From positions 1,364,001 through 1,428,000 of the forward strand of contig NZ_PIPR01000001.1 of the NCBI RefSeq assembly GCF_003987355.1: a stretch of 64,000 nt of DNA, read 5' to 3'. Source of the DNA: Pseudidiomarina aestuarii. Its GTDB lineage: Bacteria; Pseudomonadota; Gammaproteobacteria; Enterobacterales; Alteromonadaceae. Positions 13,738 through 54,719 of the stretch are shown here, piece after piece; the first letter of the stretch is position 1, and each line of letters starts with the position of its first letter. A program made the translations under genes and the position numbers. Below the pieces are notes generated by a model. It was given only the letters and a program-made list of their open reading frames with translations. It did not search any database and was not told the origin of the DNA.

Positions 13738-13759
13738 GAGTACTCCAAAAAATGAAAAG

Positions 13760-13850
13760 CGATATTTGATAATAGCTACTCGATATTAGCGAAGAGCAAA
13801 ACCGCACTGCTAGTAACTAATAGCTAGTAGCCAATTGCTGTTTACGATAG
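13760..13850. repeat. TAGCTAC-type palindromic intergenic element, copy A
   Basis: The interval holds degenerate inverted arms built from a 7-bp unit. The left arm contains AATAGCTACTCGATATTAG and the right arm TAACTAATAGCTAGTAGCC, separated by GAAGAGCAAAACCGC. It lies between the M13 peptidase start and the lpd terminator. It shares arm sequence and core with four other copies in the window (20.6, 22.2, 29.5 and 34.2 kb). Confidence 0.6.
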
Positions 13851-13872
13851 CGGATGGGTGGGAGCGCGGCAA

Positions 13873-13906
13873 TAAAAAACCGGGGCATGCAGCGCATGTC
13901 CCCGGT
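13873..13906 (-). terminator. Rho-independent terminator of the pdhR-aceEF-lpd operon
   Basis: On the minus strand, ACCGGGG-A-CATGC pairs with GCATG-CCCCGGT around a short loop and is followed by a run of six T. It begins about 25 nt past the lpd stop codon. The long GC-rich stem and T-tract are textbook. Confidence 0.9.
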
Positions 13907-13931
13907 CGTTGATCGCAAATTAGACGATCGT

Positions 13932-15356
13932 TTACTTTTTCTTAGCCTTTTTGTTCGGCAGGTCGGTGATTGACCCTTCGAACACTTCGGCGGCGAGGCC
14001 GACTGATTCATGCAATGTTGGGTGCGCATGAATGGTGAGTGCGATATCTTCAGCATCACAACCCATCTCGATTGCTAAACAAATTTCGCCCAGCAATTCA
14101 CCTGCGTTAGTCCCCACAACAGCACCACCGATGATGCGGTTATTCTTATCGAAAATCAGCTTAGTGAAACCATCTGTTGCACCTTGCGCAATCGCACGAC
14201 CTGAAGCCGACCACGGGAAGGTCGCTGCTTCGTACTCGATGCCTTGCTCTTTGGCTTCTTTCTCGGTGAGACCTGCCCACGCAACTTCAGGATCTGTGTA
14301 AGCAATCGATGGAATCACTTTCGGATCGAAGTAATGTTTCTTACCGGCAATCACCTCAGCAGCCACATGACCTTCGTGAACGGCTTTGTGCGCCAGCATA
14401 GGCTGACCGACCAAGTCGCCAATCGCGAAGATATTCTTCACGTTGGTACGTAATTGCTTGTCGACCTCAATAAAGCCACGGTCAGTCACTTTCACACCAG
14501 CGTTTTCCGCACCCACTTTCTTACCATTCGGAGCACGACCAACAGCCACTAGCACGGCATCATATTTGACTGGTTTGTCCGGTGCTTTGTCGCCTTCGAA
14601 CGTCACGTAGATACCATCTTTCTTGGCTTCTACTTTCGCCGCTTTGGTGTTCAACATAATATTGTCGAACTTCTTGTTCATGGTTTTCATGAACGGCTTG
14701 ATGACATCTTTGTCTGCCGGCGGAATCAATTGATCGGTCATTTCGACTACATCAATGGTTGACCCTAACGCGCTGTACACACAACCCATTTCCAGACCGA
14801 TAATACCGCCACCAAGAACCAACATGCGTTTTGGAATGAAGCGCAACTCGAGTGCTGCTGTCGAATCCCAGATACGCTCGTCGTCGTGTGGTACGAAAGG
14901 TAACTTAATGGACTGTGAACCTACCGCGATAATGGCGTGTTCAAAGTTAATCACGGTTTCGCCGTCATCACCTTTCACCTTCAATTGCTTGTCGCTGGCG
15001 AATTCACCGGTGCCGTTGACCACGGTAACCTTGCGCATTTTCGACATTTGGCTCAAACCGCCAGTCAATTGACCGATGACTTTTTCTTTGTGCTCGCGAA
15101 TCTTGTCGAGATCGATTTTTGGCGTACCAAAATCAACACCTTCAGCACCCAAATGCTTGGCATCTTCAATGTGCTTCGCCAAGTGCAACAAGGCTTTCGA
15201 TGGGATACAACCGACGTTTAAGCAAACCCCGCCAAGGGTGCTATAGCGCTCGACTAAAACGGTTTCAAGTCCCAAGTCAGCAGCGCGGAACGCGGCTGAA
15301 TATCCACCAGGACCCGCACCGAGTACGACCACCTGGGCTTTAATTTCTTTGCTCAT
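13932..15356 (-). CDS. lpd: Dihydrolipoamide dehydrogenase (E3)
   Basis: 474-residue FAD-dependent E3 that reoxidises dihydrolipoyl groups of pyruvate and 2-oxoglutarate dehydrogenase complexes, passing electrons to NAD+. The FAD GxGxxG motif is at 13-18 (GAGPGG). The redox-active pair is Cys45/Cys50 (GGVCLNVGCIPSK). The NAD-binding motif is GGGIIGLE. The catalytic His445-Glu450 dyad lies in HAHPTLHES. Length and motifs match E. coli Lpd closely. It is last of the PDH operon, but a TATAAT promoter in the 92-bp gap from aceF suggests separate expression too, sensible since E3 serves several complexes. The start has AGAGG upstream. Confidence 0.98.
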   Translation of the reverse strand: MSKEIKAQVVVLGAGPGGYSAAFRAADLGLETVLVERYSTLGGVCLNVGCIPSKALLHLAKHIEDAKHLGAEGVDFGTPKIDLDKIREHKEKVIGQLTGGLSQMSKMRKVTVVNGTGEFASDKQLKVKGDDGETVINFEHAIIAVGSQSIKLPFVPHDDERIWDSTAALELRFIPKRMLVLGGGIIGLEMGCVYSALGSTIDVVEMTDQLIPPADKDVIKPFMKTMNKKFDNIMLNTKAAKVEAKKDGIYVTFEGDKAPDKPVKYDAVLVAVGRAPNGKKVGAENAGVKVTDRGFIEVDKQLRTNVKNIFAIGDLVGQPMLAHKAVHEGHVAAEVIAGKKHYFDPKVIPSIAYTDPEVAWAGLTEKEAKEQGIEYEAATFPWSASGRAIAQGATDGFTKLIFDKNNRIIGGAVVGTNAGELLGEICLAIEMGCDAEDIALTIHAHPTLHESVGLAAEVFEGSITDLPNKKAKKK

Positions 15357-15397
15357 GACGACCTCTTTGATTCGTTCATTGACCAGATTCGATAAAT

Positions 15398-15433
15398 GGG
15401 GCGCATTATAGCAGCCCCATAGCGATTTGTTTA
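15398..15433 (-). promoter_or_regulatory. Internal lpd promoter with palindrome spanning the -10
   Basis: Minus strand: TAAACA (15433-15428), 17-nt spacer, TATAAT (15410-15405). The -10 is perfect and sits inside an inverted repeat, with TGGGGC and GCCCCA flanking it at about 15397-15419. The palindrome could be an operator, or in read-through RNA a weak stem-loop after aceF. It agrees with the known independent transcription of lpd in enterobacteria. Confidence 0.6.
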
Positions 15434-15448
15434 CTCTACATGGCCTGT

Positions 15449-17146
15449 TTACAGGACCAGTTTACGGATATCCGATAATACATTGCTGAGATAGACGCTA
15501 AAGCGCGCGGCTACTGCGCCATCGATAACCCGATGGTCATACGATAGGCTCAGCGGCAACATCAAACGTGGCTCGAATTCCTTGCCATTCCACTTCGGTT
15601 TCATCTCGCTTTTTGAAACGCCTAAGATAGCGACATCGGGCGCATTCACAATCGGCGTGAATGCAGTTCCACCGATACCGCCGAGGCTGGAAATCGAGAA
15701 ACAACCACCTTGCATATCCTGCGCTTTTAGCTTGCCGTCACGAGCCCGTGAACTGACGTCCATCAGCTCTTCCGACAGTTGATAAATACCCTTTTTGTCG
15801 ACATCACGAATAACCGGTACGACCAAGCCTCCTGGAGTATCGACCGCTATACCCAAATGGATATATTTCTTCATGATCAGACTTTCGCCATCTTCGTGCA
15901 GCGATGAGTTGAAGACCGGGTACTCTTGCAAGGCTTTCGCAACGGCCTTCATGATGAAGACCAATGGCGTGATCTTGATGCCATCCTTCTTCTTCGCTTG
16001 CAGCTCATTCTCTTGCTTACGGAATGCTTCCAGCTCAGAAATATCGGCTTCATCAAACTGCGTTACATGCGGAATCGTGACCCAGTTCCGATGCAAATTA
16101 GGCCCCGAAATTTTCTGGATCCGAGTCAATGGCACCTGCTCTACTTCGCCGAACTTACTGAAGTCGACCTTCTGTGGCGCAATCACTTGCAATCCACCCG
16201 TACCACCCGTCGCGGCGCCAGCGTTTGCCTTCGGACGCGATAATTCGTATTTCACATAGTCTTGCACGTCTTCTTTCATGATTCGGTCTTTACGACCTGA
16301 ACCTTTCACTTGATTCAGATCGACACCAAATTCACGTGCGAGACGGCGCACTGCAGGCGATGCGTAAGCGAGACCTTCGGCTTTACCTTTCTTATCCAGC
16401 GGATGATCAGGAACCGGTGGCTTACGTTGCTCGCTACTGTCGCTCGACTTCTCTGCTGGCTGCTGGGACTTTGATTCTGTCTCTGGCTGCGGCTCTGGAG
16501 CCGGTTCCGGCGATGGTTCAGCAGCTTTCTTACTGCCACTGTCCTGCACCCGCAACATAATGACCAACGAACCTTCTTTTACTTTGTCGCCCGTTTTCAC
16601 TTCGACAGACTCAACCACGCCCGCTTGCGGTGCCGGTACATCCATTGTTGCTTTGTCGGTTTCCAGCGTGATCAGGCCGTCTTCAGCTGCTATCTCATCG
16701 CCCTCTTTGACCAAAACCTCGATCACATCCACTTCGCCAGATTCACCGATGTCGGGAACCTTCACTTCAATCACTTTGCTTTCGCCTGCACTCTCATCCT
16801 GCGCAGAATCAGGCTCTGGAGCCGGCTCTGGCTCTGGTTCTGGCTTTGGTTCCGGAGCTGCTTCAGGTTCTGGCTCAGGTTCAGGCTCCGAACCTGAGTC
16901 TGCGTCACCTGCGGCTTCAAACATCGCCAGCAAATCACCTTCGTTAATTTTATCGCCAACCTTCACCTTGATTTCGGCAACCTTGCCGGCAAAAGGTGCG
17001 GGGATATCCATGGATGCTTTATCACTCTCAACGGTAATCAACGAGTCTTCTGCTGCGAGTTCATCACCCGTGCTCACCAAAATTTCGATGACTTCAACCG
17101 CTTCGCCTCCCACATCCGGGGCTAGGACTTCTTTTAAATCTGCCAT
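15449..17146 (-). CDS. aceF: Pyruvate dehydrogenase E2, dihydrolipoamide acetyltransferase
   Basis: 565 residues. Two lipoyl domains carry the modified lysines Lys43 (ESDKASMD) and Lys165 (ETDKATMD). Flexible linkers rich in Glu-Pro and Pro follow each of them (about 86-112 and 207-235). A peripheral-subunit-binding domain comes next ([17 protein letters not shown]). The C-terminal acetyltransferase domain has catalytic His538 and Asp542 in [10 protein letters not shown]2 forms the core of the PDH complex and transfers acetyl groups to CoA. E. coli has three lipoyl domains, whereas two are common elsewhere. It lies 21 bp downstream of aceE and is clearly co-transcribed. Confidence 0.98.
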
Positions 17147-17167
17147 AAGTGCCTCCGCTCCCGTCGC

Positions 17168-19837
17168 TTACGCGTACAGTGGATTGATTTTGTTCACATC
17201 GATGCCGAAGTCTTTAATCGCCTTCGTCACCACTTTGGCATCAATAGTGCCCGCTTTTGCTAACTCACTCAGTGCAGCTACAGCAATGTAATGCGCATTC
17301 ACTTCAAAGTGACGACGCAAGTTTTCGCGACTGTCTGAACGTCCGAAGCCATCAGTACCTAACACGCGATAAGCGGTCGGTACCCACGCACGAATTTGAT
17401 CCGCGTACAGCTTCATGTAATCCGTTGCAGCGATAGTAGGTCCTTTAGCTTTGCTCAAAACCTCTGTGACATAAGCGGTTTTCGCTTTCTTGGTCGGGTT
17501 CAACATGTTGTAACGGTCAACATCCATGCCATCGCGCGCGAGCTCATTGAATGATGTTGCGCTGTACACAGTGGCACTGATGCCAAAGTCATCAGCGAGC
17601 AATTTCGCCGCTTCACGAACTTGTTGCAAAATGGTGCCTGAACCGAGCAACTGGACTTCGCCTTTGGCTGATTTTGGTGCATGTTTCTCCAGCTCATACA
17701 AACCTTTGATGATGCCCTCTTCAGACCCTTCAGGAAGTTCTGGCTGCTGGTAGTTCTCGTTCATGACGGTGAGGTAATAGAATACGTTTTCACCTTCGCC
17801 ATACATGCGGCGCAAACCATCTTGCACGATCACAGCCACTTCATAGCCGAACGTTGGATCATAGGTGACGCAATTCGGAACCGTGTTGAACAAGATATGG
17901 CTGCTACCGTCTTGGTGCTGGAGACCTTCACCGTTGAGTGTGGTGCGGCCAGCCGTACCACCCACCAAGAAGCCGCGGGCTTGGCTATCGCCTGCCGCCC
18001 ACACCAAATCACCGACGCGTTGGAAACCGAACATAGAATAATAGATATAAAACGGAATCATTGGCTCATTGTTGGTGGAGTAGCTGGTTGCTGCCGCCAC
18101 CCATGACGCCATCGCGCCGAGCTCGTTAATACCCTCTTGAAGCACTTGGCCTTTAGTATCTTCACGATAGTAAGCCACTTGATCCGCATCTTGCGGCTCA
18201 TATTTCTGGCCTTGGCTCGAGTAAATACCCACTTGGCGGAACAGACCTTCCATACCAAACGTTCGCGCTTCATCGGGAATGATTGGGACAATGCGATCAC
18301 CAATTTTCTTATCTTTCAGTAGCGCTGTCAGCACGCGAACAAACGCCATTGTAGTTGAGATTTCACGATCACCAGAGCCTTTCAGAACCGCGTCAAATGC
18401 TTTTAGTGCTGGCATTTCGAGTTCTTTATCGCTCTCTGGCCGACGCACCGGCATAAAGCCGCCGAGGGCTTCACGCCGCTCGCGCATGTACTTCATTTCC
18501 GGACTGTCATCCGGGAATTTGTAGAATGGAATATCTTCAAGTTCGCTGTCTTTAATCGGAATATTGAAGCGGTCACGGAAGTGTTTGATCGCTTCCATGT
18601 CCATTTTCTTCACTTGGTGCGCGATGTTCTTCCCTTCACCGGCGGCACCCATGCCATAGCCCTTGACCGTTTTCGCCAAAATGACTTGTGGACGGCCTTT
18701 GGTATTCACTGCTTTGTGATAAGCCGAGTAAACTTTGACTGGGTCGTGACCACCACGGTTCAAACGCCAAATATCTTCGTCAGATAAGTTGGCGACCATC
18801 GCTTTGGTTTCTTCGGTTTTGCCGAAGAAGTGTTCGCGTGTATAAGCACCACCTTTCGCTTTGTAATTCTGGTACTCGCCATCCACGCTGTCTTGCATAA
18901 TTTGCGCGAGCTTGCCGTCGGTGTCGCGATACAGCAACGGATCCCAATAGCGACCCCAAATCACTTTAATCACTTCCCAACCAGCACCACGGAAGGTGCC
19001 TTCGAGTTCTTGGATGATTTTGCCATTACCACGCACGGGGCCATCCAGGCGCTGTAAGTTACAGTTCACGATAAAGGTCAGGTTATCTAAGCCTTCACGA
19101 GTAGCTAAACCAATCGCACCTAAGCTCTCTGGCTCATCCACTTCACCGTCACCCAAGAAGCAGTACACACGTTGCTTCGAGCAGTCTTTAATGCCTCGGT
19201 CTGTGAGGTATTTCAAATAGCGTGCTTGGTAGATCGCTTGAATAGGGCCAAGGCCCATCGATACCGTTGGGAACTGCCAAAAATCAGGCATCAATTTCGG
19301 ATGCGGGTAAGACGAAACACCCTTACCATCGACTTCTTGACGGAAGTTGTTTAACTGCTCTTCAGAAATTCGGCCTTCCAAGAAGGCTCGCGCATAAATA
19401 CCCGGTGATGCGTGACCTTGTACGTACAAGTAATCACCACCATCTTGCTCGGTCGGTGCACGGAAGAAGTGGTTAAAGCCGATATCGTAAATCATCGCAG
19501 ATGAGGCAAAACTTGAAATATGCCCGCCTAATTCCAATTCTTTCTTCGACGCACGCAAGACCATGGCCAACGCGTTCCAACGAATCGCAGCACGAATGCG
19601 CGCCTCCATGCTCTGGTCGCCCGGCATAGTCGGCTCTTGGCTCGCTGGTATGGTATTTAAATAGGCAGTGGTCGCTGCGTATGGCAAATAGGCCCCGCTG
19701 CGGCGCGCTTTTTCGATTAAGGATTCCAGCAGGAAGTGACCCCGCTCAGGGCCGTCTTCTTCCAGCACGACTTCGAGGGCATCAAGCCACTCCCGCGTTT
19801 CTTGCGGATCGAGGTCGTCTTTTAAGTGGTCAGTCAT
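17168..19837 (-). CDS. aceE: Pyruvate dehydrogenase E1 component, homodimeric type
   Basis: 889 residues, the usual size for the single-chain E1 of gammaproteobacteria. It decarboxylates pyruvate with thiamine diphosphate and reductively acetylates E2 lipoyl groups. The TPP-binding GDG motif is visible (CFLGDGEVDEPES) with downstream NCNLQRLDGP. The HASPGIYARAFLEGR and GHISSFASSAMIYD blocks are characteristic of AceE. Its start codon overlaps the pdhR stop by 4 nt (ATGA), so regulator and enzyme are translationally coupled, tighter than in E. coli. Confidence 0.98.
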   Translation of the reverse strand: MTDHLKDDLDPQETREWLDALEVVLEEDGPERGHFLLESLIEKARRSGAYLPYAATTAYLNTIPASQEPTMPGDQSMEARIRAAIRWNALAMVLRASKKELELGGHISSFASSAMIYDIGFNHFFRAPTEQDGGDYLYVQGHASPGIYARAFLEGRISEEQLNNFRQEVDGKGVSSYPHPKLMPDFWQFPTVSMGLGPIQAIYQARYLKYLTDRGIKDCSKQRVYCFLGDGEVDEPESLGAIGLATREGLDNLTFIVNCNLQRLDGPVRGNGKIIQELEGTFRGAGWEVIKVIWGRYWDPLLYRDTDGKLAQIMQDSVDGEYQNYKAKGGAYTREHFFGKTEETKAMVANLSDEDIWRLNRGGHDPVKVYSAYHKAVNTKGRPQVILAKTVKGYGMGAAGEGKNIAHQVKKMDMEAIKHFRDRFNIPIKDSELEDIPFYKFPDDSPEMKYMRERREALGGFMPVRRPESDKELEMPALKAFDAVLKGSGDREISTTMAFVRVLTALLKDKKIGDRIVPIIPDEARTFGMEGLFRQVGIYSSQGQKYEPQDADQVAYYREDTKGQVLQEGINELGAMASWVAAATSYSTNNEPMIPFYIYYSMFGFQRVGDLVWAAGDSQARGFLVGGTAGRTTLNGEGLQHQDGSSHILFNTVPNCVTYDPTFGYEVAVIVQDGLRRMYGEGENVFYYLTVMNENYQQPELPEGSEEGIIKGLYELEKHAPKSAKGEVQLLGSGTILQQVREAAKLLADDFGISATVYSATSFNELARDGMDVDRYNMLNPTKKAKTAYVTEVLSKAKGPTIAATDYMKLYADQIRAWVPTAYRVLGTDGFGRSDSRENLRRHFEVNAHYIAVAALSELAKAGTIDAKVVTKAIKDFGIDVNKINPLYA

Positions 19838-20616
19838 ACTTTATCCTTACCCAGTTTGTGTTCGGCATTGTTGGTGCGGCGCAGTGAACGCAGCATTCGC
19901 GATTGCTCGCGATTCAGTGTCAACAATGCATTTTCGATGTAGGCGAGCAGTTGGTGACACGCTTCCCGTGCCTGCTCTGGCTCACCAGCAGCTATAGCGG
20001 CAACAATCAGTTGCCGATGTTCGTGTAACTGTTGCACGATGCCCGGCTTGTGTGCGAGATCCTGCAAGTTTTGTTGAATATTTTTCTGTAACAGTGGCTG
20101 CATACTGCGCACCAAGTGCAATAGGATCACATTGTGTGATGCCTCACAAATACACAAGTTGAACTCGGTGAGCGCTGTTGCTAATGCGACGATGTCCGTT
20201 GCATCGACACGACTAATCGCTTCAAAGCTAACTTGCACCCGCTCTAAATCGGCTGCGGTTCCGCGCAACGCAGCGTAATAGGACGAAATACCCTCTAAGG
20301 CATGCCGGAACTCGAGCAAATCAAACTGTGACTCCGGGTGTTTCGTCAATAAATCTAATAAAGGTTCAGCGACGCGCTGCTGTAAATTGTCGACCACATA
20401 AGTGCCGCCACCTTGGCGCCGCTCGAGCAACCCGCGCGCTTCCAGCTTTTGAATGGCTTCACGCAAACTCGGCCGCGACACCGAAAACTGATGCGCAAGA
20501 TCACGCTCCGACGGCAAGCGCGCGCCAGCTTCGAGCGTGCCATCGACAATCATGCCCTCAATACGTTGCATGATGACATCGGATAGCTTGGTCTGTTGGA
20601 TGCGTTCAAAAGCCAT
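19834..20616 (-). CDS. pdhR: GntR/FCD-family repressor of the pyruvate dehydrogenase operon
   Basis: 260 residues. The N-terminal winged helix (about 9-75) includes the GntR signature LPSERDLAHQFSVSRPSLREAI. The C-terminal FCD ligand domain (about 95-235) matches PdhR (FRHALEGISSYYAALR, FNLCICEASHNVILLHL). PdhR represses pdhR-aceEF-lpd and is released by pyruvate. It overlaps aceE by 4 nt and has a PdhR-like box at its own promoter about 120 bp upstream, consistent with autoregulation. Confidence 0.96.
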   Translation of the reverse strand: MAFERIQQTKLSDVIMQRIEGMIVDGTLEAGARLPSERDLAHQFSVSRPSLREAIQKLEARGLLERRQGGGTYVVDNLQQRVAEPLLDLLTKHPESQFDLLEFRHALEGISSYYAALRGTAADLERVQVSFEAISRVDATDIVALATALTEFNLCICEASHNVILLHLVRSMQPLLQKNIQQNLQDLAHKPGIVQQLHEHRQLIVAAIAAGEPEQAREACHQLLAYIENALLTLNREQSRMLRSLRRTNNAEHKLGKDKV

Positions 20617-20624
20617 AAAGCCTG

Positions 20625-20728
20625 CTAATTGCTACTAGTTACTCGCTATTAGTTGCTGGTTACTAGAAGAGCGCAGATCTGTGCTTTCGAGTAACTAGTA
20701 GCTAGTAGCCAGTGACGCTCTTCGAGCA
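20625..20728. repeat. TAGCTAC-type palindromic intergenic element, copy B (in pdhR leader)
   Basis: Arms built from the 7-bp unit flank the core GAGCGCAGATCTGTGCTTTC. The left arm contains TTGCTACTAGTTACTCGC and the right arm GTAACTAGTAGCTAGTAGCC. GAAGAGCG near the core is repeated inverted as CGCTCTTC at its right end. It sits between the predicted pdhR promoter and the pdhR start, so it would be transcribed as structured 5' leader RNA. Confidence 0.7.
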
Positions 20729-20734
20729 TTGGGT

Positions 20735-20780
20735 CATTGGTCTTACCACGCATTGTAGATCAGGATGCGGCAAAGCCCAA
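20735..20780 (-). promoter_or_regulatory. Predicted pdhR operon promoter with PdhR-like operator
   Basis: Minus strand: TTGGGC, 17-nt spacer, TACAAT (20757-20752). Directly downstream, covering the expected start of transcription, is ATTGGT-CTT-ACCA (read on the plus strand, 20736-20748). This matches the known PdhR consensus ATTGGT-N3-ACCAAT except in the last bases. The arrangement fits repression of pdhR-aceEF-lpd by its first gene product. Confidence 0.65.
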
Positions 20781-20791
20781 ACATTTTCCTG

Positions 20792-21613
20792 TTAGAGCCA
20801 GCCGCTAATAGTGAATACCGCAATGAATACTATAAATAACAACAGGTTACGTTTGAGCAGTGCGACAGTGGTCAGAGCAGTGCTAGTGACGTCGTCGGAT
20901 GATTCCGGTTCTAAATTCTCAGCCGCAGCAGCAATCTTTGTGAGTGCGCTAAAGTTATCGCCAGGAATATTTCCAACTGAACTGAGCCAAGCGCCTGCCG
21001 CTTTTGAGAAATTACCGACGAGCAAAAAGCCCAATGTCATCACCCTAGTTGGCAACCAATCAATCATGAACTGCGCGCGTTGCCAGTTGATTGACGAGGT
21101 ACGACGTGGACGACGCATATCGCGTAAGGTCGCGTAGACCAGTACACCGACAATCCCGAACAGTACATAGTAAAGTAGTACCGCGAAATACTGGCGCAGA
21201 TGAATCCATAGCAATAAGTCATGTACAGGAGCTGCATCAGTGCGACCCGAGGCCAAGCGCAATTGACGCAGGGCTTCAGCCGTTTGAGCAGCGTCTCCCG
21301 CATTCGCGCTATCTAAATATTCTTTATAAGCAATACGCGCTTGTGGACATTGAATACTGAGGACTATCGCTGCAGTACCGACTATAAAATGAAGTAATAA
21401 ATTACCACTTAGTGCCACCACGAAAGCTATCAAGAATGCTGGGATCAATGCCCACACCAGCTGTCCGAGACCATTTTGTTTCCACTCTTTGAGTCCGGTG
21501 TGTTCGAACTCAAGGTGCTGCCAACGCAGGACCAGACGACGCCAATGCCAGTTTTTGCCGACGGTTACGGTTCTTTCTAACGCATATGCAAGAATAATGG
21601 CCAGCAATTGCAT
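20792..21613 (-). CDS. ampE: AmpE-like inner-membrane protein
   Basis: 273 residues with several membrane segments: one at the N-terminus (MQLLAIILAYALER), two central (QLVWALIPAFLIAFVVAL and the adjacent segment), one around residues 150-170 and one at the extreme C-terminus (LLLFIVFIAVFTISGWL). The N-terminus and the central NWHWR region match AmpE, which is encoded beside ampD in many gammaproteobacteria. It has been proposed to act in sensing for beta-lactamase induction; its biochemical activity is not established. It follows ampD by 10 bp on the same strand. Confidence 0.9.
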   Translation of the reverse strand: MQLLAIILAYALERTVTVGKNWHWRRLVLRWQHLEFEHTGLKEWKQNGLGQLVWALIPAFLIAFVVALSGNLLLHFIVGTAAIVLSIQCPQARIAYKEYLDSANAGDAAQTAEALRQLRLASGRTDAAPVHDLLLWIHLRQYFAVLLYYVLFGIVGVLVYATLRDMRRPRRTSSINWQRAQFMIDWLPTRVMTLGFLLVGNFSKAAGAWLSSVGNIPGDNFSALTKIAAAAENLEPESSDDVTSTALTTVALLKRNLLLFIVFIAVFTISGWL

Positions 21614-21623
21614 AATGATGATC

Positions 21624-22178: not shown

Positions 22179-22189
22179 AGTACCCCCAA

Positions 22190-22311
22190 AAACGCTATTG
22201 GTTACTAGCTACTAGCTACTCGAAGAGCGCTGCTGGCTAGTGGTTACTAACTACTAGAAAACCACGGAACGGCGCCGCTCTAATAACTAATAGCTAATAG
22301 CCAATAGCGCC
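22190..22311. repeat. TAGCTAC-type palindromic intergenic element, copy C
   Basis: Clear large inverted repeat. CGCTATTGGTTACTAGCTAC begins the left arm (about 22191) and its complement, read as CTAATAGCCAATAGCG, ends the right arm (about 22308). AGAGCG and CGCTCT also face each other inside. About 35 bp per arm can pair with C/T differences that remain compatible with G-U pairing in RNA. It lies between divergent ampD and nadC, leaving little room for the ampD promoter. Confidence 0.75.
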
Positions 22312-22359
22312 TTTATCTGAGACATATCGTAGCGCGAAGCGGTGGAGCCGTCAGCTTTT

Positions 22360-22389
22360 TTGGCACTACGTCCAGAGCTGACGTAGAAT
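22360..22389 (+). promoter_or_regulatory. Predicted sigma-70 promoter of nadC
   Basis: TTGGCA (22360-22365), 18-nt spacer, TAGAAT (22384-22389). Each hexamer differs from consensus at one base. The start of transcription would be about 27 nt before the nadC ATG. Confidence 0.65.
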
Positions 22390-22417
22390 AGCGCTATTCT
22401 TTTACAGTTAGGATTAG

Positions 22418-23290
<873 letters not shown>

Positions 23291-23293
23291 ATA

Positions 23294-23321
23294 TTGACGC
23301 TTTAACCGTTTGTGCTATGTT
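23294..23321 (+). promoter_or_regulatory. Predicted promoter of the pilA leader
   Basis: TTGACG (23294-23299), 16-nt spacer, TATGTT (23316-23321), preceded by TG to give an extended -10 (TGCTATGTT). It begins 4 bp after the nadC stop and would give a leader of about 320 nt containing the cyclic-di-GMP aptamer. Confidence 0.55.
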
Positions 23322-23358
23322 TGATATTGCAATGCGCATCTGCGAAGTGGACGTCGCG

Positions 23359-23450
23359 GCATGCCAGGCATGCTTAAAAAGGCAAAACCGTCGAGAGGCG
23401 GTGACGCAAAACCTCCGGTCCAAATACTTTGGATAGCGGGGCTGCAGGCT
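23359..23450 (+). ncRNA. Cyclic-di-GMP-I (GEMM-I) riboswitch in the pilA leader
   Basis: The conserved core of the GEMM-I aptamer is present in order. GGCAAAACC (about 23381-23389) opens a P2 stem capped by a GAGA tetraloop and closed by GGCGG. GACGCAAAACCTCCGG (23403-23418) follows. P3 is a short hairpin TCCAAATACTTTGGA, and TAGCGGGG (about 23434-23441) ends the core. These are the family's invariant blocks, compared from memory with the Vibrio Vc2 aptamer. A perfect hairpin GCATGC-CAG-GCATGC precedes it (23359-23373). A second hairpin, CCGACG-AAA-CGTCGG (about 23477-23491), lies downstream and may belong to the expression platform. Class I switches sense the second messenger c-di-GMP, here probably tuning pilin expression. 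Confidence 0.85.
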
Positions 23451-23649: not shown

Positions 23650-24141
23650 ATGAAAGCGCAAATCCAACGTGGTTTTACATTAATTGAATTGATGATTGTT
23701 GTTGCAATCATCGGCATCTTGGCCGCCGTGGCCATTCCTATGTACAGTGATTATACGCAACGTGCACAAGCAAGTACGGGTGTTGCGGCTTTAGCATCAT
23801 TCAAGCAAGCTGTGGCACTATGCTACCAGAACGAAGGTTCGCTCACTGACTGCGACGCGGGCACCAACCGTATCCCGACAGCAATTGCTGATGCAGATGC
23901 AGTAAACGGTCTTGACGCTGCCGGTGTTACCGACGGTATCATCACCGCAACGCTTGACGCTGTAGCGGAAGCAGACGGTGCAAATATCACGATTGCAATC
24001 GTGCCAAACACAGCTGAAGGTTCTAACCTGAACTGGGATATCGAATGCTCAGACTACGATGCAGACGGTAACTCACGCGTAGACGGTTGTGCTTATGCTG
24101 CTAACGGTGCTCCAGGTCGTCCAGCTGCACCAGCAGGCTAA
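23650..24141 (+). CDS. pilA: Type IV major pilin
   Basis: 163 residues. The short type IVa leader MKAQIQRG ends in Gly before Phe+1 and Glu+5 ([20 protein letters not shown]), the PilD cleavage and methylation signal. This hydrophobic segment forms the N-terminal helix. The globular part has four Cys residues in two pairs ([14 protein letters not shown] and [17 protein letters not shown]), suggesting two disulfides. The C-terminal tail is Gly/Pro/Ala-rich ([11 protein letters not shown]). It is the first gene of pilABCD and is separated from pilB by a terminator, so pilin can be made in large excess. Confidence 0.96.
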
Positions 24142-24165
24142 TATATAATTCTAATATGATATTTT

Positions 24166-24193: not shown

Positions 24194-24208
24194 ATTAAAA
24201 GGTCGACC

Positions 24209-25906: not shown

Positions 25907-25927
25907 CGATTTCTTGGGGTACTAACT

Positions 25928-27166: not shown

Positions 27167-27216
27167 CGATTCGCGCGGCGAGTTTACGTTTACGCCTGCA
27201 TTCGACAAGGAACCTT

Positions 27217-28083
27217 ATGGACTTAATGACGCTCTACGCTGCACACACCCCTTGGGCAGCCGCTTTTGGTATTGCTTTCGGGTTAATTGTCGGCAGCTTT
27301 CTCAATGTGGTCATTGGCCGTTATCCTGTCATGATGCAACGCCAATGGCGAGCTGAATGTGCCCAATTACAAGAGCAAGAACTCCCCAAAGCTGAACCCT
27401 TTAATTTAGCGACGCCCCATTCCCGCTGTCCAAAATGTCAGTCAGCTATTCGCTGGTACGACAACATTCCGGTGCTTAGTTGGCTGTTGTTACGAGCAAA
27501 ATGCCGCTCCTGTGGAACCACTATTTCTGCGCGTTATCCGCTGATAGAGTCACTGACTGGTGCGGTATTTGGTGTGTTGGCGTGGCAGTTCGGAATGAGC
27601 GTCGATGTGGGCATTTATATGTTGCTTGCGGCTCTGCTGATTGTCTTGTTCTTCATTGACCTCGACCACATGCTACTGCCCGACCCATTTACGTTATTCG
27701 CTTTGTGGCTGGGGCTTGGTTATGCCATTTATGGCGGTCCAGTGAGTCTGCAAGATGCCGTGATTGGCGCTATGGCTGGTTACTTATTCCTGTGGTCGGT
27801 TTATTGGATTTTCAAACTACTGACCGGCAAAGAAGGTATGGGTTATGGCGACTTCAAATTGCTGGCTGCCTTAGGTGCGTGGACTGGTTTTCAGTATCTC
27901 CCTGTCATTATTATCGCTGCTGCGGGTAGCGGCGCGATATTGGGTCTCACTTTGCAATGGCTGCGCAAAACCAAAGCTGGCCAACCGATTCCATTCGGCC
28001 CATTCTTGATCTGTGGCGGCGTCATTACCATGGTCTGGGGTGAGCTCATTCTATCCACCTATTGGTCTTGGTTGGCACGCTAA
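27217..28083 (+). CDS. pilD: Prepilin leader peptidase / N-methyltransferase
   Basis: 288-residue polytopic aspartyl protease (GXGD type) that cleaves prepilin leaders and methylates the new N-terminus. The cytoplasmic zinc-type tetracysteine is present (Cys71, Cys74, Cys96, Cys99). Catalytic Asp148/150 lies in FIDLDHMLLPD, and Asp212 in GMGYGDFKLLAALGAW. It probably also processes type II secretion pseudopilins. Its stop codon overlaps the coaE start (TAATG). Confidence 0.98.
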   Translation: MDLMTLYAAHTPWAAAFGIAFGLIVGSFLNVVIGRYPVMMQRQWRAECAQLQEQELPKAEPFNLATPHSRCPKCQSAIRWYDNIPVLSWLLLRAKCRSCGTTISARYPLIESLTGAVFGVLAWQFGMSVDVGIYMLLAALLIVLFFIDLDHMLLPDPFTLFALWLGLGYAIYGGPVSLQDAVIGAMAGYLFLWSVYWIFKLLTGKEGMGYGDFKLLAALGAWTGFQYLPVIIIAAAGSGAILGLTLQWLRKTKAGQPIPFGPFLICGGVITMVWGELILSTYWSWLAR

Positions 28084-28706
28084 TGTATGTTGTGGGCGTG
28101 ACTGGCGGTATCGGTAGCGGCAAAACGACCGTCACTAATCTCTTTCAAACCCATGGCATCGATGTGGTCGATGCAGATGTTATCGCCCGCAGCATTTTTC
28201 AGCCGGGAAGTGATGCCTTACTGCATGTTCAAGAGCGATTTGGTGACCGCGCATTGCTCGAAACTGGTGAGTTAAACCGCGCTTGGTTACGGGAACGAGT
28301 TTTTACCCATCCCGAGGATAAAGCGTGGCTGAATCAGCTCACGCACCCTCTGATTCGCGAGCAGATTCTTGCTGCTTTAAAACAGGCACAATCGCCTTAT
28401 GTAATTTTGTCCGCCCCCCTATTGGTTGAGAATAAGCTCACCGCATTGTGTGATCGCGTTTTGGTAGTAGATGTAACGGAAGCGATGCAGATTGAACGAA
28501 CGCGTCAACGCGATGACGTCAGCGCACAGCAAGTGAGCGCCATTATGCAGGCACAAGCCTCTCGTATTGAACGCTTGCAAGCAGCTGATGATGTGCTGGA
28601 TAACAATGGCACTCCGGAGGCTTTGGTAGAGCCCGTCGAGCGCTTACATCGCTTTTACCTTCAACAAGTCGAACAACAATTGCAACTGCGCGATAAGCCG
28701 TTATGA
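28083..28706 (+). CDS. coaE: Dephospho-CoA kinase
   Basis: 207 residues. Catalyses the last step of CoA synthesis, ATP-dependent 3'-phosphorylation of dephospho-CoA. P-loop GGIGSGKT at residues 8-15 and the DADVIAR motif follow the family. The start at 28083 is used because it puts the P-loop at the usual distance from the N-terminus and couples to pilD through TAATG; a longer frame from 28062 has no family support. It precedes zapD with a 4-nt overlap. Confidence 0.97.
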   Translation: MYVVGVTGGIGSGKTTVTNLFQTHGIDVVDADVIARSIFQPGSDALLHVQERFGDRALLETGELNRAWLRERVFTHPEDKAWLNQLTHPLIREQILAALKQAQSPYVILSAPLLVENKLTALCDRVLVVDVTEAMQIERTRQRDDVSAQQVSAIMQAQASRIERLQAADDVLDNNGTPEALVEPVERLHRFYLQQVEQQLQLRDKPL

Positions 28707-29476
28707 TAGAGAGCATGAGCGCTAACACTGCAGCAACGATTGATTATGAATATCCACTTCATGAGCGGGTACGTACTTACCTGCGCTTGGAGCATTTGCT
28801 GCAGATGCTCGCTCCTCAGCGTCCGGTCGATGCGACCAATTACGCGCGCTATTTCTCAGCTTTATTTGCCATTTTAGAACTCTGTGAACGCAGTGATGTG
28901 CGCACCGATGTTCAAAAAGACTTAGATCGTCGTAAAACACAACTGCAATTGTGGGCGCAACATCCAGACGTGAATCAAGATCAACTGGCTGCCACCTCAA
29001 CCCGCGTGCGCGATGCGCTAGCGGCTATTCAACCAATGACTCGAGTGGGCAGTAGTTTAAAACAAGATCGTTTGCTGGGTGTGATTCGCCAGCGCTTTGC
29101 CATGCCGGGCGGCACCTGTAACTTCGATGTCCCGCAATTGCATTATTGGCTGCACCAACCGCAAGAATTACGCACGGCTGATTGCGCACGTTGGTGGAAA
29201 GAACTCGAAGTACTCTTATCGAGCCTGCAATTAGAGTTGCAACTGTTACGCGGCCAAGCGATCTTCCGCGATGTAGTCGCCCCAGCTGGCCTCTTACAGG
29301 AAACCACCGAAGCACTCTCATTACTGCGCTTACAAGTCCCAGCAGATATTCCTGCCTACCCGGTCATCAGTGGCCACAAAACCCGCTTCAGCATCCGCTT
29401 CCTGCGCTATACCCCGGTCGATGGGAAAGCGTCGTACGAGGAAAACGTAACGTTCAGCCTGGCGTTATGCCCGTAG
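28703..29476 (+). CDS. zapD: Z-ring-associated protein ZapD
   Basis: 257 residues. Cytoplasmic protein that cross-links FtsZ filaments at midcell. The N-terminal IDYEYPLHERVRTYLRLE and the downstream RFAMPGGTCNFDVPQLHYWL and RFLRYTPVDGKASYEENVTF blocks are diagnostic. The first ATG overlaps the coaE stop by 4 nt; a second in-frame ATG 12 nt later (28715) is an alternative start. The gene that usually follows, yacG, is absent here. Confidence 0.95.
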   Translation: MIESMSANTAATIDYEYPLHERVRTYLRLEHLLQMLAPQRPVDATNYARYFSALFAILELCERSDVRTDVQKDLDRRKTQLQLWAQHPDVNQDQLAATSTRVRDALAAIQPMTRVGSSLKQDRLLGVIRQRFAMPGGTCNFDVPQLHYWLHQPQELRTADCARWWKELEVLLSSLQLELQLLRGQAIFRDVVAPAGLLQETTEALSLLRLQVPADIPAYPVISGHKTRFSIRFLRYTPVDGKASYEENVTFSLALCP

Positions 29477-29484
29477 GGCGCTAA

Positions 29485-29620
29485 GAGCGTTACTGGCTAC
29501 TAGCTACTGGCTACTACAAACACTTAAGAGCGAAAAGCGTTACTAGCTTTTAGCTACTAGTTGCTCGCTACTACAAAGACAGATCTGCGCTTTTCTATTA
29601 GCTAATAGCTAGTAGCGATT
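29485..29620. repeat. TAGCTAC-type palindromic intergenic element, copy D
   Basis: It fills most of the 147-bp gap between convergent zapD and mutT. It contains GTTACTGGCTACTAGCTAC, then a second similar arm, then the core ACAGATCTGCGCTTTT, then ATTAGCTAATAGCTAGTAGC. AAGAGCG recurs twice in it. The left arm appears duplicated, making this the longest copy. Confidence 0.65.
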
Positions 29621-29623
29621 CTC

Positions 29624-30019
29624 TCACTTAGCTAGGAGGTCGACGATGCGGGTGTTGGCTTCGGGGAAGGGATAGGCTTCTAGTTCGCTGCGATCGACCC
29701 AGCGCCATTCTTGGCCTTCGCGCTGATGTACGGTACCCGTGAACGAATGAACGTGCCAGACGTCTAGAATGACGCTTTTATCGGGGTAATCGAATTGAAT
29801 CACTGTGAAGGGTGTTGCCGAGGTAACTTGGATGTTGCACTCTTCTTGCAGCTCACGGCATAACGCGTCGTAGACGGACTCATCCGTTTCGACTTTACCG
29901 CCCGGAAATTCCCATTTATCACCTTGATGTAAATGCTGATGGCGACGGCTGATGAAGATGGCACCGTCGGTGTTTTCTATGACACCGACGGCAACATGAA
30001 TGGCGTTAGATTTTGCCAT
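29624..30019 (-). CDS. mutT: 8-oxo-dGTP diphosphatase
   Basis: 131 residues. Nudix hydrolase that cleans the nucleotide pool of 8-oxo-dGTP. The Nudix box [21 protein letters not shown] has every key residue of G-x5-E-x7-REUxEE. The start is placed at 30019 ([14 protein letters not shown]), matching MutT length and N-terminus. The open frame extends 65 codons further, but that part is antisense-free secA sequence in another frame. It overlaps the secA 3' end by 14 nt. Confidence 0.95.
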
Positions 30020-32708
30020 GACATTGTTTATATTTTTTACCCGACCCACATGGACATGGATCGTTGCGGCCCACTTTCTGCGCAGCTGCAGGCGCTGCTG
30101 GCTCAGGTGATGGACTACCGCTGGTACTGGCGCTCTCATGAGTGAATTGCTTTGGCGCTCGCTCGGCTGCCTCGCGGCGCTTAGCTTCAACTGCTTCGAC
30201 GTCCTCTTCTGCACGTACGCGCACTTTACTCAGAATCGTTACGACTTCTAATTTCAGCGCTTCGAGCATATCGGTGAAGAGTTCAAATGCTTCACGCTTG
30301 TATTCCTGCTTAGGATTCTTCTGTGCGTAACCACGTAAATGGATACCTTGGCGCAAATGATCCATCGCCGCTAGGTGTTCCTTCCAATGCGAATCCAAGC
30401 TTTGCAGCATAATCGCCTTTTCAAACTGACGTAATACTTGCGAGCCTACTTGTTCTTCTTTGGCTGCATAGGCTTGTTCAATTTCGCTGAAGATCCGCTC
30501 ACGCAGGGTTTCTTCATGCAGTTTGTCGTCGTCATCCAACCACTTCTGCACCGGCAACTGCACATCGAAATCAGCGCGTAGGCGTTCTTCTAGGCCTTCA
30601 ACATTCCACATTTCTTCGAGCGATTGCGGTGGGATGTATTCGTTGATCACATTCTCAACCACATCCACGCGAATGGCTTTAATCGTTTCCGAAATATCAC
30701 CTTCATCGAGCAACTCATTACGTTGCTCGTACACCACTTTACGTTGGTCATTGGCGACATCATCGTATTCAAGCAATTGCTTACGAATATCGAAGTTACG
30801 GCCTTCAACTTTGCGCTGAGCGTTCTCGATAGCGCGTGATACCCACGGATGTTCGATGGCTTCACCACGTTTCATCCCGAGGCGCTTCATCATGGCACCC
30901 ATGCGCTCTGAGGCGAAGATACGCATCAACGGATCTTCCAGTGACAAATAGAAGCGTGATGAACCTGGGTCACCTTGACGACCTGAACGACCGCGGAGCT
31001 GGTTATCGATACGACGTGACTCGTGACGCTCAGTACCAATAATATGTAGACCACCGGCTGCGATAACGGCGTCGTGACGCTCTTGCCACGCAGCCTTCAC
31101 TTTTTCAATTTGCTCGGGGCTTGGCTCTTTCAACTTCTCAATTTCAGACTGTAAATTACCGCCCAACACGATATCCGTACCACGACCCGCCATGTTGGTG
31201 GCGATAGTGACCGCACCCGGTAAACCGGCTTGGGCAACAATATCCGCCTCTTGCGCATGAAATTTTGCGTTCAAGACATTGTGTGGGATTTTCTTTTTCT
31301 TCAACAAGCCCGACAGCAGCTCAGAGGTTTCGATGGAAATGGTACCGACCAGTGCTGGTCGACCGGCCTCGCGGCATTGCTGAATGTCTTCGACAATCGC
31401 ATCGAACTTCTCTTCAGCGGTCAGGAAGATTAAATCCGCACGGTCATCACGAATCATTGGACGGTTGGTTGGAATAACGACCGTCTCCAGGCCGTAAATC
31501 GATTTAAACTCGAATGCTTCAGTATCGGCCGTACCGGTCATACCGGCTAATTTATTGTACAGACGGAAGAAGTTCTGGAAGGTAATCGACGCCATCGTCT
31601 GGTTTTCATTTTGGATGGTGACGCCTTCTTTGGCTTCCATTGCTTGATGCAAGCCTTCCGACCAACGACGGCCTTCCATGGTCCGACCGGTGTGCTCATC
31701 AACAATCACAATTTGGTCATCTTTGACAATGTAATCCACGTCGCGATGGAACAAGTGACGCGCGCGCAACGCTGCGTTCACGTGATGCAATAAGGTAATG
31801 TTCGCAGCCGAATAGAGCGAGTCGTCTTCGGCTAGCATGCCGCGCTCTTTCAGCAGCTGCTCGACATTTTCTTGACCTTCTTCGGTCAGATGTAACTGGC
31901 GTGCTTTTTCATCGATGGTGAAGTCACCTTCAACACGACCCTCTTCACTGTCTTCTTTGTCAGCCTTTTTCAGTAACGGCACAAGCTCGTTCATCTTAAT
32001 ATAGAGCTCTGAGCTATCTTCAGCGGCACCAGAAATGATGAGTGGGGTCCGCGCTTCATCGATTAAAATCGAGTCGACCTCATCCACAATCGCGTAATTC
32101 AGCTCGCGTTGCGCTCGATCTTGTGGCGTAAACGCCATGTTGTCACGCAAGTAATCGAAGCCAAATTCGTTATTCGTACCGTACGTCACATCGGCTTGAT
32201 ACGCAGCTTTCTTGTCCCGTGGGTTCATCCCAGGGATGTTAAAGGCAACGGTCATATCGAGGAATTCGAACAATGGACGGTTAGTTTCGGCATCACGACG
32301 CGCTAGGTAGTCGTTGACCGTCACAATGTGGACACCTTTACCCGACAGCGCATTGAGATACGCGGGTAAAGTCGCCGTGAGAGTTTTACCTTCACCGGTT
32401 CGCATTTCGGCAATGCGGTTGTCATTCAGAATCATGCCGCCAACCAGCTGCACATCAAAATGACGCATGTTAAACACACGCTTGGATGCTTCGCGCACGG
32501 TCGCAAATGCTTCCACTAGAATATCGTCGAGCGTCTCACCTTGCGCGAGGCGTTGCTTAAACTCAGCAGTCTTTTGCTTTAACTCACTGTCGCTTAAGGC
32601 CTCAAACTCAGGTTCAAGCGCATTGATGCGCTGTACATTCTTTTGTAAACCTTTGAGGATACGATCGTTACGGCTACCAAAAACCTTCCGAAAAATACTT
32701 CCAAGCAT
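30006..32708 (-). CDS. secA: Preprotein translocase ATPase SecA
   Basis: 900 residues. Motor of Sec-dependent export. Walker A ([20 protein letters not shown]) and Walker B ([15 protein letters not shown]) are in the DEAD motor. Preprotein cross-linking, helical-wing and scaffold regions are in normal order. The C-terminus carries the zinc motif [16 protein letters not shown] that contacts SecB. No secM-like leader gene is apparent upstream; a LytM-type peptidase gene lies there instead. mutT is coupled downstream. Confidence 0.98.
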
Positions 32709-32743
32709 GAGAATTTAAAATCCTGTGGTCGTTGTCGCGTGCC

Positions 32744-33679
32744 TTAATTAGCGTCGCGATATACATATTTATAAGGGTCAATTTGTCGATTGTTGCGGAG
32801 CACTTCGTAATGCACATGTGGACCTGTCGAACGTCCGGTGCTTCCGAGTATGGCTATTTCTTGGCCGCGTGTGACAACATCGCCTTCTTTCACCAACAAT
32901 TCTTTACAATGGGCGTAGCGCGTTTTTAAGCCGCCTCCATGGTCAATTTCAATGAGCTTGCCGTAGCCATAACGCTCGCCTGACCAAGTAACTACTCCTG
33001 CACCGGTTGCGTACACGCCGGCGTTTTCTTCCAAACTGGCAAAGTCGAGACCCTTATGCATGGCTGGTGTACCATTGAACGGATCTTTTCGCACACCATA
33101 CTGTGACGACAACCAACCTGACGTAATGGGTCGACCTGCCACAAAGCTCTCTGCAGAGATATGGTGACTCATCATCACAGACTCAAGGAGGGACAGCTGA
33201 TTTTGTTTATCGGAAAGCTGTTCGAGCATGCGATCAATTTGATCAACCACATCACGACCATCGACACGCGGCGCTTCCGTAATCGAAATTTCTGGTCCAC
33301 CGACGAGTGGTGATGCGGATTGTTCGCCAAATTCGAACTCACCGTTATCGAGCTCAGCCACCGCGGCCAGTCGTTGACCTAAGGCGTCCAACCGACGCAT
33401 TTGCGCCTGCATTTCACCCAAATAAATGGTCATTGCTGCGAGCTTTTTCTCGGTTTCATCTTTCAATTGGGCAACTGCTTTCGTTTGTGCTGCCAATCGA
33501 ATTTGCTCATCGCTGATACTGGCCCGCGCAGCTTCTGGATCCACCCCACTGTATTCCCAGGGTTTACTCAGAGCCAGCACACCCAAAGCCGCCAATCCTG
33601 CTAAAGACAGCAGTCGGCGCCGCGTGAGCTCGAATCCGAATTTTACTTTGGTGCCTCGATAGAAGACTGTTAGACTCAT
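32744..33679 (-). CDS. M23-family (LytM-type) peptidase with N-terminal membrane anchor
   Basis: 311 residues. After a basic stretch (ELTRRR) one hydrophobic helix (LLSLAGLAALGVLALS) anchors the protein, followed by a coiled-coil segment (about 55-110). The LytM domain is at the C-terminus. Metal ligands appear intact: MHKGLDFAS (His, Asp) and GPHVHYEV (HxH). It therefore looks like an active endopeptidase on peptidoglycan cross-links, unlike the degenerate EnvC/NlpD activators. It is upstream of secA on the same strand. Its ATG shares CATG with a possible dciA start on the other strand. Confidence 0.92.
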   Translation of the reverse strand: MSLTVFYRGTKVKFGFELTRRRLLSLAGLAALGVLALSKPWEYSGVDPEAARASISDEQIRLAAQTKAVAQLKDETEKKLAAMTIYLGEMQAQMRRLDALGQRLAAVAELDNGEFEFGEQSASPLVGGPEISITEAPRVDGRDVVDQIDRMLEQLSDKQNQLSLLESVMMSHHISAESFVAGRPITSGWLSSQYGVRKDPFNGTPAMHKGLDFASLEENAGVYATGAGVVTWSGERYGYGKLIEIDHGGGLKTRYAHCKELLVKEGDVVTRGQEIAILGSTGRSTGPHVHYEVLRNNRQIDPYKYVYRDAN

Positions 33680-33704
33680 GCAATCTCTCGTTGCTTTGAA
33701 ACTT

Positions 33705-34163
33705 ATGGCTCGCTCTCGACCCCGTACCTTACAACATGTGCTCGATGGTCAAAGGCTTCAGCAATTTGCTGACTTTACCGAGCAACACAAACGCTGGCAA
33801 CAGCAATTACGTGATTGTTTTCACGTACTGCAGCTGTCGCCTTTGTCTGAGCATTGTCAGGTTTTGAACGTCCGCGCACAAACCCTAATCATGCAAGTTT
33901 CATCGGCCGCCATTGCGACACGATTGAAAATGCAACAAAGCCGCATTATAACGTATTTTCGCAATGAAGCTATGCTTGCGGTCGAACGACTTGAACTACG
34001 CATCGCACCAGCCGCCAATCAACCACCAGCTGAACCACGAAAGCAGTCTGCGACAAGCGATTCGCTGAGCGATACTGTCAAACAATTAAGGGAACAAGCT
34101 GAACAGTGCGAAGAGCCACTGCGTTCACAACTACTCGCACTAGCAGCAAAATACGAAAAATAA
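33705..34163 (+). CDS. dciA: DciA-type (DUF721) helicase-associated protein
   Basis: 152 residues. A DUF721/DciA domain spans about residues 5-100: PRTLQHVLDG, then LNVRAQTLIMQVSSAAIATRL and a helix following it. A less conserved C-terminal tail follows. DciA is the ancestral loader of replicative helicase DnaB in bacteria without DnaC/DnaI. The start at 33705 (MARSRPRTL) is chosen from family alignment; an ATG at 33678 would add nine residues and overlap the divergent peptidase start. It ends immediately before a repeat element, whose first bases include the TAA. Confidence 0.85.
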   Translation: MARSRPRTLQHVLDGQRLQQFADFTEQHKRWQQQLRDCFHVLQLSPLSEHCQVLNVRAQTLIMQVSSAAIATRLKMQQSRIITYFRNEAMLAVERLELRIAPAANQPPAEPRKQSATSDSLSDTVKQLREQAEQCEEPLRSQLLALAAKYEK

Positions 34164-34276
34164 CGCTACTAGCTACTAGCTACTAGCTACTAGCTACTAG
34201 CTACTAGCTACTAGCTACTAGCTATTAGAAACCACAGATCGAGTGTTTGCGAGTAACTAATAACCAATAGCGAATA
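34164..34276. repeat. TAGCTAC-type palindromic intergenic element, copy E, with expanded heptamer array
   Basis: Eight perfect tandem copies of CTACTAG (34166-34221) and a ninth variant CTATTAG form the left arm. The core ACCACAGATCGAGTGTTTGC follows, then the right arm GAGTAACTAATAACCAATAG. The right arm is only about three units long, so the left array is an expansion beyond what the palindrome needs. It occupies the gap between convergent dciA and lpxC. Confidence 0.85.
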
Positions 34277-54715: not shown

Positions 54716-54719
54716 AAGT

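Follow-up and report, generated by a model that had tools for sequence, protein, structure and literature searches.

Heptad palindromes of Pseudidiomarina occupy shared intergenic slots with unlike content

In a 64,000-nucleotide stretch of the Pseudidiomarina aestuarii genome (contig NZ_PIPR01000001.1; hereafter, the window), five palindromes with arms made of 7-bp units (heptads) lie between genes and raise the question of whether they are local signals or members of a spreading repeat family. They belong to a family that is dispersed through the genome, is located between genes and has a common architecture; in related species, the orthologous gaps ('slots') often contain palindromes of an unlike type, and the copies within a genome resemble each other. 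As to how they spread, we infer that these are genus-wide, non-autonomous palindromes, similar to REPINs (inverted pairs of repetitive extragenic palindromes, REPs), that are mostly overwritten in place by copies of other elements; the probability of this reading is, in our estimate, roughly 0.45.

The five copies, at approximately 13755-13845, 20624-20725, 22188-22314, 29483-29623 and 34164-34282 of the window (elements 1 to 5), all lie between the main open reading frames (ORFs) of a mechanical list, with the left tip of the fifth touching the dciA stop codon. The element caller finds exactly these five and none in the dcw stretch, in agreement with the initial annotation, and the mixture of co-directional (two), divergent (one) and convergent (two) gaps that it described is borne out as well. 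The left arms are runs of GYTAYTR heptads and the right arms are runs of the inverted unit, YARTARC; the core that had been attributed to all copies, GAAAACACAGATCT-n-GCTYTTC of the CACAGATC type, is clear in only three (20.6, 29.5 and 34.2 kb) and degenerate in two (by eye). When folded as single-stranded DNA, elements 2, 3 and 5 are clearly more stable than shuffled sequences (z -3.28, -4.28 and -3.01, respectively); elements 1 and 4 are not (z -0.36 and -0.81).

That this five-copy family is not a product of chance follows from pattern counts in the host genome: TAGCTACTAGCTAC, with at most one mismatch, gave 48+49 matches, and GYTAYTRGYTAYTRGYTAYTRG, the strict GYTAYTR pattern, gave 153+109, compared with 0+0 for either reversed pattern. 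The more general three-heptad pattern GNTANTNGNTANTNGNTANTNG gave 286+224 matches, against 2+8 with the reversed control, so that the genome-wide search that had been proposed for this family turned up many further copies. In the 344 kb around the window, which hold 100+61 of these 510 general-pattern matches, 33 elements were called (3 with the reversed control pattern), which, scaled by 510/161, translates into an estimate of ~105 elements in the genome. The segments compared with it, those of P. tainanensis (hereafter, T) and genome G070, contain 25 (control 0) and 31 (control 1) elements, respectively. All 33 host elements lie outside conserved genes: alignments of conserved genes cover 81% of the segment, and none of the elements has more than one-fifth of its length within them; by the same criterion, this is the case for 23 of the 25 elements of T and 29 of the 31 elements of G070.

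The usual layout consists of a left heptad array, a core and an inverted right array; LLR and LRR forms also occur. Each arm includes a few to about twenty heptads in the frame GNTANTN, with a tip like AAAAGCG (host consensus AAaa.CG). The TAGCTACTAGCTAC search gave 51 places, four of them in the window, and the other 47, when fetched, had the same architecture with uneven arm lengths: one has twelve left units versus four right units (L019), some contain extra heptads of another kind inside (L014, L026, L031, L039), and a few show a single arm at the threshold used (e.g. L003). The numbers of paired elements and lone arrays (at least three heptads with the opposite arm not called, the right-arm-first order not being called separately) are 33 and 1 in the host, 25 and 5 in T, and 31 and 6 in G070. 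Near-identical elements are found near the starts of contigs C7, C8 and C1 (L046, L047 and L135) and may adjoin repeated DNA, for instance an rRNA operon.

The comparison of orthologous gaps covered the three segments, from the host, T and G070, in which the median amino acid identity of scored reciprocal best hits is 94.8% between T and G070 and ~80% between the host and either of them. Among the 294 conserved adjacent gaps of T and G070, 19 contain an element in both species, 2 only in T and 8 only in G070. For the host and T, the counts are 9 (both), 14 (host only) and 8 (T only) among 243 conserved gaps, and for the host and G070, 11 (both), 15 (host only) and 12 (G070 only) among 245. Inspection by eye of the 10 one-sided T-G070 gaps shows, in the species without a called element, a REP pair (four gaps, one of these pairs, in a long gap, being known from the motif count only) or a GTTATTC/GTTCG palindrome that the heptad call misses because of its shortness (six gaps).

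Placed side by side, the T and G070 sequences frequently match as far as the tip, after which T has GATATTA arms with one core and G070 has GTTATTC arms with another core; at some shared slots, the two species have one and the same type and differ little, and mixed arms also occur. Typing of the T-G070 gaps of at least 60 bp in the same orientation resulted in 96 gaps without a typed element, 10 with the same type (six GATATTA, one GTTATTC and three REP) and 30 with unlike content. In 14 of the latter, GATATTA in T faces GTTATTC in G070, in one the arrangement is the reverse, and the rest involve REPs, a third class or sequences below the typing threshold. Flank identity within 60 bp is 0.908 at the unlike slots (n=30), compared with 0.922 at the like slots (n=10) and 0.891 at gaps without a typed element (n=96). 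Apparent remnants of an older type were seen by eye at T positions 53870, 196916 and 232062. GTAG-type REP pairs of relatives occupy heptad-palindrome slots, at L048, L050, L051, L162 and in T/G070 gaps.

The diversity of slot content is apparent also in one 19-kb region read in 22 genomes. Site 3, located before a promoter-like stretch, is occupied in 17 of the 22 (by eye), whether by a palindrome of the heptad or a related kind, by a REP pair or by both mixed, with GATATTA, GTTATTC, GCTACTG, GTTAATC, GCTATTC-like and other units; two genomes retain remnants (G199, G214), and three have none (G203, G204, G026; by eye). In G198, G202 and G102, a remaining heptad arm stands beside the REP pair at this site. 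Site 8, recovered in six genomes, has flanks common to close genomes and elements that differ in type, in G170 versus G070 and in G131 versus G198 and G212, the last two being 88-91% identical to G131 over the region; G131 also has an apparent older-type remnant here (by eye).

Within each genome, the elements mostly resemble each other. A paralogue in the same genome outscores the slot orthologue in 13 of 19 cases for T-G070, 8 of 9 for host-T and all 11 for host-G070. In G070, both arms belong to the same class in 25 of the 31 elements (9 A/A and 16 C/C), which indicates that the elements change as wholes. In 24 aligned host elements, pairing between the two arms of one element is no better than after arms are swapped among elements (0.668 vs 0.677, reached by 1490 of 2000 permutations), so that pairing appears to come with the subfamily rather than to be kept pair by pair; in the stem test, all four sets (the host, T and two of G070) fall below the swapped mean. 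Both arm-swap tests speak against an RNA structure conserved pair by pair, and this candidate was rejected.

In the reading of overwriting in place, the element consists of two inverted heptad arms around a subfamily-specific core and has an intergenic position, frequently only a short distance past a stop codon. The uneven arm lengths suggest that arm length may change by slipped-strand mispairing on the 7-bp period, and the private copies suggest that new gaps may occasionally be entered. Mostly, however, an existing element would be overwritten by a copy of another one, from the same or another subfamily, possibly via ectopic recombination starting in the shared tips and arms, and alongside this overwriting, some slot alleles would be exchanged between species. 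The slot would persist, and its content would become that of the subfamily expanding in the given genome. The broader proposition, that dozens of slots have inherited positions with arms and core rewritten by the expanding subfamily without RAYT (the REP-associated tyrosine transposase), reverse transcriptase or SbcCD, and so represent concerted evolution of dispersed bacterial sites, is a tentative one that we would sooner doubt than accept.

Several observations weigh against replacement in place. Four of the six non-REP partners in the one-sided gaps score only 10.5-12.5 as hairpins, close to the highest score of shuffled sequences, 11.5. A type-blind hairpin score supports slot sharing between T and G070 (20 gaps scoring in both, 97 in neither; Fisher p 1.7e-13) but leaves 12 one-sided gaps (8 and 4), and yields no significant sharing between the host and T or between the host and G070 (p 0.11 each); by this score, the host elements are poorly paired. 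The host-only gaps do not correspond to clean empty sites in T, with medians of 159 bp in the host, 38 bp after subtraction of the element and 148.5 bp in T. At site 3, the adjoining flank changes together with the type (GATATTA vs GTTATTC), in a distribution that does not follow overall genome similarity, which points to some exchange between species, and site 5 holds heptads in 3 of the 22 genomes, REPs in 8 and a REP remnant in 1, and has no element in the other 10, which include the host (by eye). No recombinase and no copying event was identified for the heptad palindromes, the transposase and reverse transcriptase families surveyed being PF01797 and PF00078. A candidate for a trigger is SbcD, a subunit of the nuclease that limits palindromes and could cut such hairpins and start conversion. 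The one family model used (TIGR00619; of 14 genomes in the control search, 13 gave a signal and 8 exceeded the cut-off) matched in 2 of the 26 genus genomes, G199 and G205, and had no match in the other 24, including the host, T and G070, although it could miss a very diverged SbcD. An SbcD trigger for conversion is therefore probably not available in most of these genomes, for which SbcCD-started gene conversion was rejected. Given that G205 has both SbcD and 70+91 heptad matches, the lack of SbcD is not required either; its scarcity in the genus is unusual and might be connected with the tolerance of palindromes.

Replacement in place has to be weighed against four other explanations. A transposase or site-specific recombinase could act repeatedly, with palindromes of different families being inserted independently at the same few tolerant gaps or target sequences and the older elements being deleted; this would fit the apparently private elements 3 and 4 of the window, the assortment of heptad-filled, REP-filled and empty states at site 5 and the occupation of the same gaps by GTAG-type REP pairs. 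Nevertheless, such independent insertion is unlikely: none of the 29 T-G070 heptad slots is plainly empty in the other species, even if four partners are weak palindromes, several slots of unlike content have flanks that match as far as the tips, no target duplication was recognized by eye at these slots in a comparison between species rather than strains, and the host has no match to the Y1 family, the one transposase family surveyed. Exchange of alleles, i.e. the swapping of short intergenic tracts between Pseudidiomarina species by homologous recombination, fits site 3, with its different adjoining flanks that do not track overall genome similarity, better than copying of paralogues does. 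As a general account, it has a low probability because slots of unlike content do not have more divergent flanking genes, because at site 8 the flank follows the genome and the element does not, and because the homogeneity within a genome would be left unexplained.

Local regulatory or terminator hairpins are a different kind of explanation, under which a bidirectional hairpin would be needed at the transcript end and would be rewritten by fast mutation and slippage under selection for pairing. In tandem gaps, the median distance from the upstream stop to the beginning of the element is 5 bp (host, n=15), 12-13 bp (T, n=11) and 10 bp (G070, n=19), and the median distance from its end to the next start is 28, 36-84 and 19 bp, respectively; the tips give a T run after the stem (by eye). 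Given this proximity to the preceding stop, the elements could plausibly affect transcript ends. For the origin of slot content, however, the explanation is improbable: own arms pair no better than swapped ones, divergent gaps are occupied as well, and the presence of the same units at dozens of unrelated loci requires copying. A REPIN family mobilized by RAYT would match the inverted pair with its core, the intergenic location and the high copy number; it is nonetheless very improbable because Y1_Tnp has no match in the host or G070, and the arms lack both the short hairpin form of a REP and the GTAG tag.

The search for a RAYT-like transposase, which the initial annotation had recommended, came out negative: the Y1/RAYT family (PF01797) has 0 matches in the host, with the control search positive in 5 of 14 genomes, and RAYT-driven REPINs were rejected for the host genome. 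The same family matches in 19 of the 26 genus genomes; G070, the next richest in heptads, has no match. The suggestion of a REP-like or miniature mobile family thus stands with respect to dispersal, intergenic location, multiple copies and REPIN-like layout, and fails with respect to a RAYT. As both arms could be one unit added to two 3' ends, heptad addition by a reverse transcriptase or a telomerase-like enzyme was considered as well, and was rejected given that PF00078, which is present in 7 of the 26 genomes, has no match in the host (G000), T, G070 or G131.

The individual elements of the window, none of which is assigned to a strand, differ in pairing and in distribution among relatives. 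Neighbouring genes are named by Pfam family assignment, except for the gene next to element 4, which was not scanned and which we take, from its position, to be mutT. Element 1 (arms 13764-13790 and 13809-13835, 74% complementary) shows weak pairing and a degenerate core, and is located in a co-directional gap between genes for an M13 peptidase (11671-13737, minus strand) and a pyridine nucleotide-disulphide oxidoreductase (13932-15356, minus). Element 2 (arms 20624-20645 and 20688-20709, 91% complementary; core GCGCAGATCTGTGC) separates the co-directional genes of a GntR-FCD regulator (19834-20616, minus) and ampE (20792-21613, minus), a slot that contains a heptad palindrome also in P. tainanensis, P. 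woesei and G070, and none in G151 and P. mangrovi. Element 3, with 43-nt arms that are 74% complementary, lies in the divergent gap between an Amidase_2 gene (ampD-like) and a QRPTase gene (nadC). This gap is 245 bp long in the host; it has no heptad element in CB1 and P. mangrovi (125 bp) or G151 (190 bp) and is filled with other DNA (865-1444 bp) in P. woesei, G070 and P. tainanensis. Element 4 is a composite, with two left arms (29482-29520 and 29525-29560), core ACAGATCTGCGC and one right arm (29592-29630), in the convergent zapD/mutT gap, which is 147 bp long in the host, compared with 50 bp in G070, 51 in P. tainanensis, 26 in P. woesei, 14 in G151, and 1 each in P. mangrovi and DAH.19; in CB1, it is 290 bp long and contains REP pairs. 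None of the seven relatives read has a heptad element here, P. aquimaris, with a 1036-bp gap whose sequence was not read, being outside that set. Element 5, in the convergent dciA/lpxC gap, has about eight GCTACTA units in its left arm, a shorter right arm and, between them, core CCACAGATCGAGTG. In P. tainanensis, this gap holds a heptad palindrome built of GATATTA and GCTGTTA units, in CB1, P. aquimaris and P. woesei, inverted GTAGCCCG-type REP pairs, and in P. mangrovi and DAH.19, the gap is short.

Judged by these gaps, elements 3 and 4 look like private insertions, whereas the GntR/ampE and dciA/lpxC slots hold palindromes in several relatives. Presence at the same loci in relatives, which the initial annotation would have taken as a sign of local regulatory elements, was accordingly found at two slots, but with different heptads or REPs.

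Host LpxC is 86-90% identical to its counterparts in the six Pseudidiomarina records found. Beyond the host, the strict GYTAYTR pattern is rare: 17 of the 196 genomes of the family have any match, and the host is followed by G151 (32+11; control 19+0) and G194 (2+10). The general pattern matches in 20 of the 26 genus genomes, with 0 to 510 hits, and the host (510), G070 (356), G210 (353; 88% complete) and G170 (307) are the richest. In the wider family, 75 of the 196 genomes match, with at most 43 hits per genome outside the genus, where the controls are as high in some genomes (G190) and near zero in others (G078, G163, G187). In G151, the GTTATTGG arrays at two loci (L177, L137) are long and their inverted counterparts short, which looks as though array length in the same system had gone out of control. 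One 111-bp element had no match in plasmid and phage collections, and an origin from either was set aside as a candidate. The heptad pattern was used throughout because a period-7 scan with strict thresholds recovered only one of the five copies in the window and did not report the palindrome of P. tainanensis; a covariance model was discarded given that its structure was self-pairing inside one arm (9 pairs).

At gathering thresholds, Rfam recognizes in the window only a class A RNase P RNA (54718-55079, minus) and a c-di-GMP-I-GGC riboswitch (23372-23450, plus), upstream of an ORF at 23650-24141 (plus), with no match for the palindromes. A 2141-aa ORF (361-6786, plus) contains, from ~1099, a long array in which the spacing is 12 and 18 bp (64 copies in overlapping registers) and which has inverted similarity to 16797-16919.

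By the definition used here, REPINs are intergenic, occur in many copies and consist of inverted units around a core, all of which is the case for the heptad palindromes, and the unit is a hairpin of 20-40 nt with a GTAG or CGTC tag, which the heptad-array arms are not. In the available parts of the accounts of REPs and REPINs with RAYTs, including the GTAG-tagged REPs (PMC3733652, PMC3116915), the likeness extends to dispersal, intergenic location, an inverted pair with a core and odd numbers of arms, and the heptad palindromes occupy the same gaps as GTAG-type REP pairs of relatives; they differ in that the arms are AT-rich heptad arrays rather than short GC-rich hairpins, in that the host has no RAYT match, and in that the heptad unit varies between species at one slot. 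Bacterial miniature inverted-repeat transposable elements (MITEs), as far as the accessible text describes them (PMC10969869), are likewise short, non-coding and dispersed, with inverted terminal repeats; for the heptad palindromes, neither a parent transposase (PF01797 and PF00078 surveyed) nor a target duplication (by eye) was identified. Replacement of content at fixed positions is unexpected for REP- and MITE-like families, which spread to new sites by a transposase.

Heptamer satellites are known (PMC6749651, in the portion available), and heptanucleotide direct repeats of TAACTGA are described, in the available part of PMC4679880, from Beggiatoaceae, Cyanobacteria and Bacteroidetes as direct, mostly intergenic arrays; in the main strain, most of them immediately precede start codons, and a single case is inverted. 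Tandem 7-bp units and a mostly intergenic location are common to both systems, and the other strand of TAACTGA, GTTATCA, is close to the heptad frame; the Pseudidiomarina arrays, however, are inverted pairs (33 paired, against 1 lone array, in the host) rather than direct arrays without an inverted partner, and in tandem gaps they lie close behind stop codons. A literature search, with poor coverage of subscription journals, found no description of this heptad palindrome family, including by its unit strings, and among dispersed bacterial palindromes we regard this family as a new variant. Its slots represent a natural experiment on the copying, tolerance and exchange of palindromes. In repeat families that undergo concerted evolution, copies within a genome are more alike than orthologues. 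The heptad palindromes share this property, but they are dispersed single copies in a bacterial chromosome that differ in type at fixed sites; if copying occurs by ectopic recombination, concerted evolution would become measurable in a small bacterial genome.

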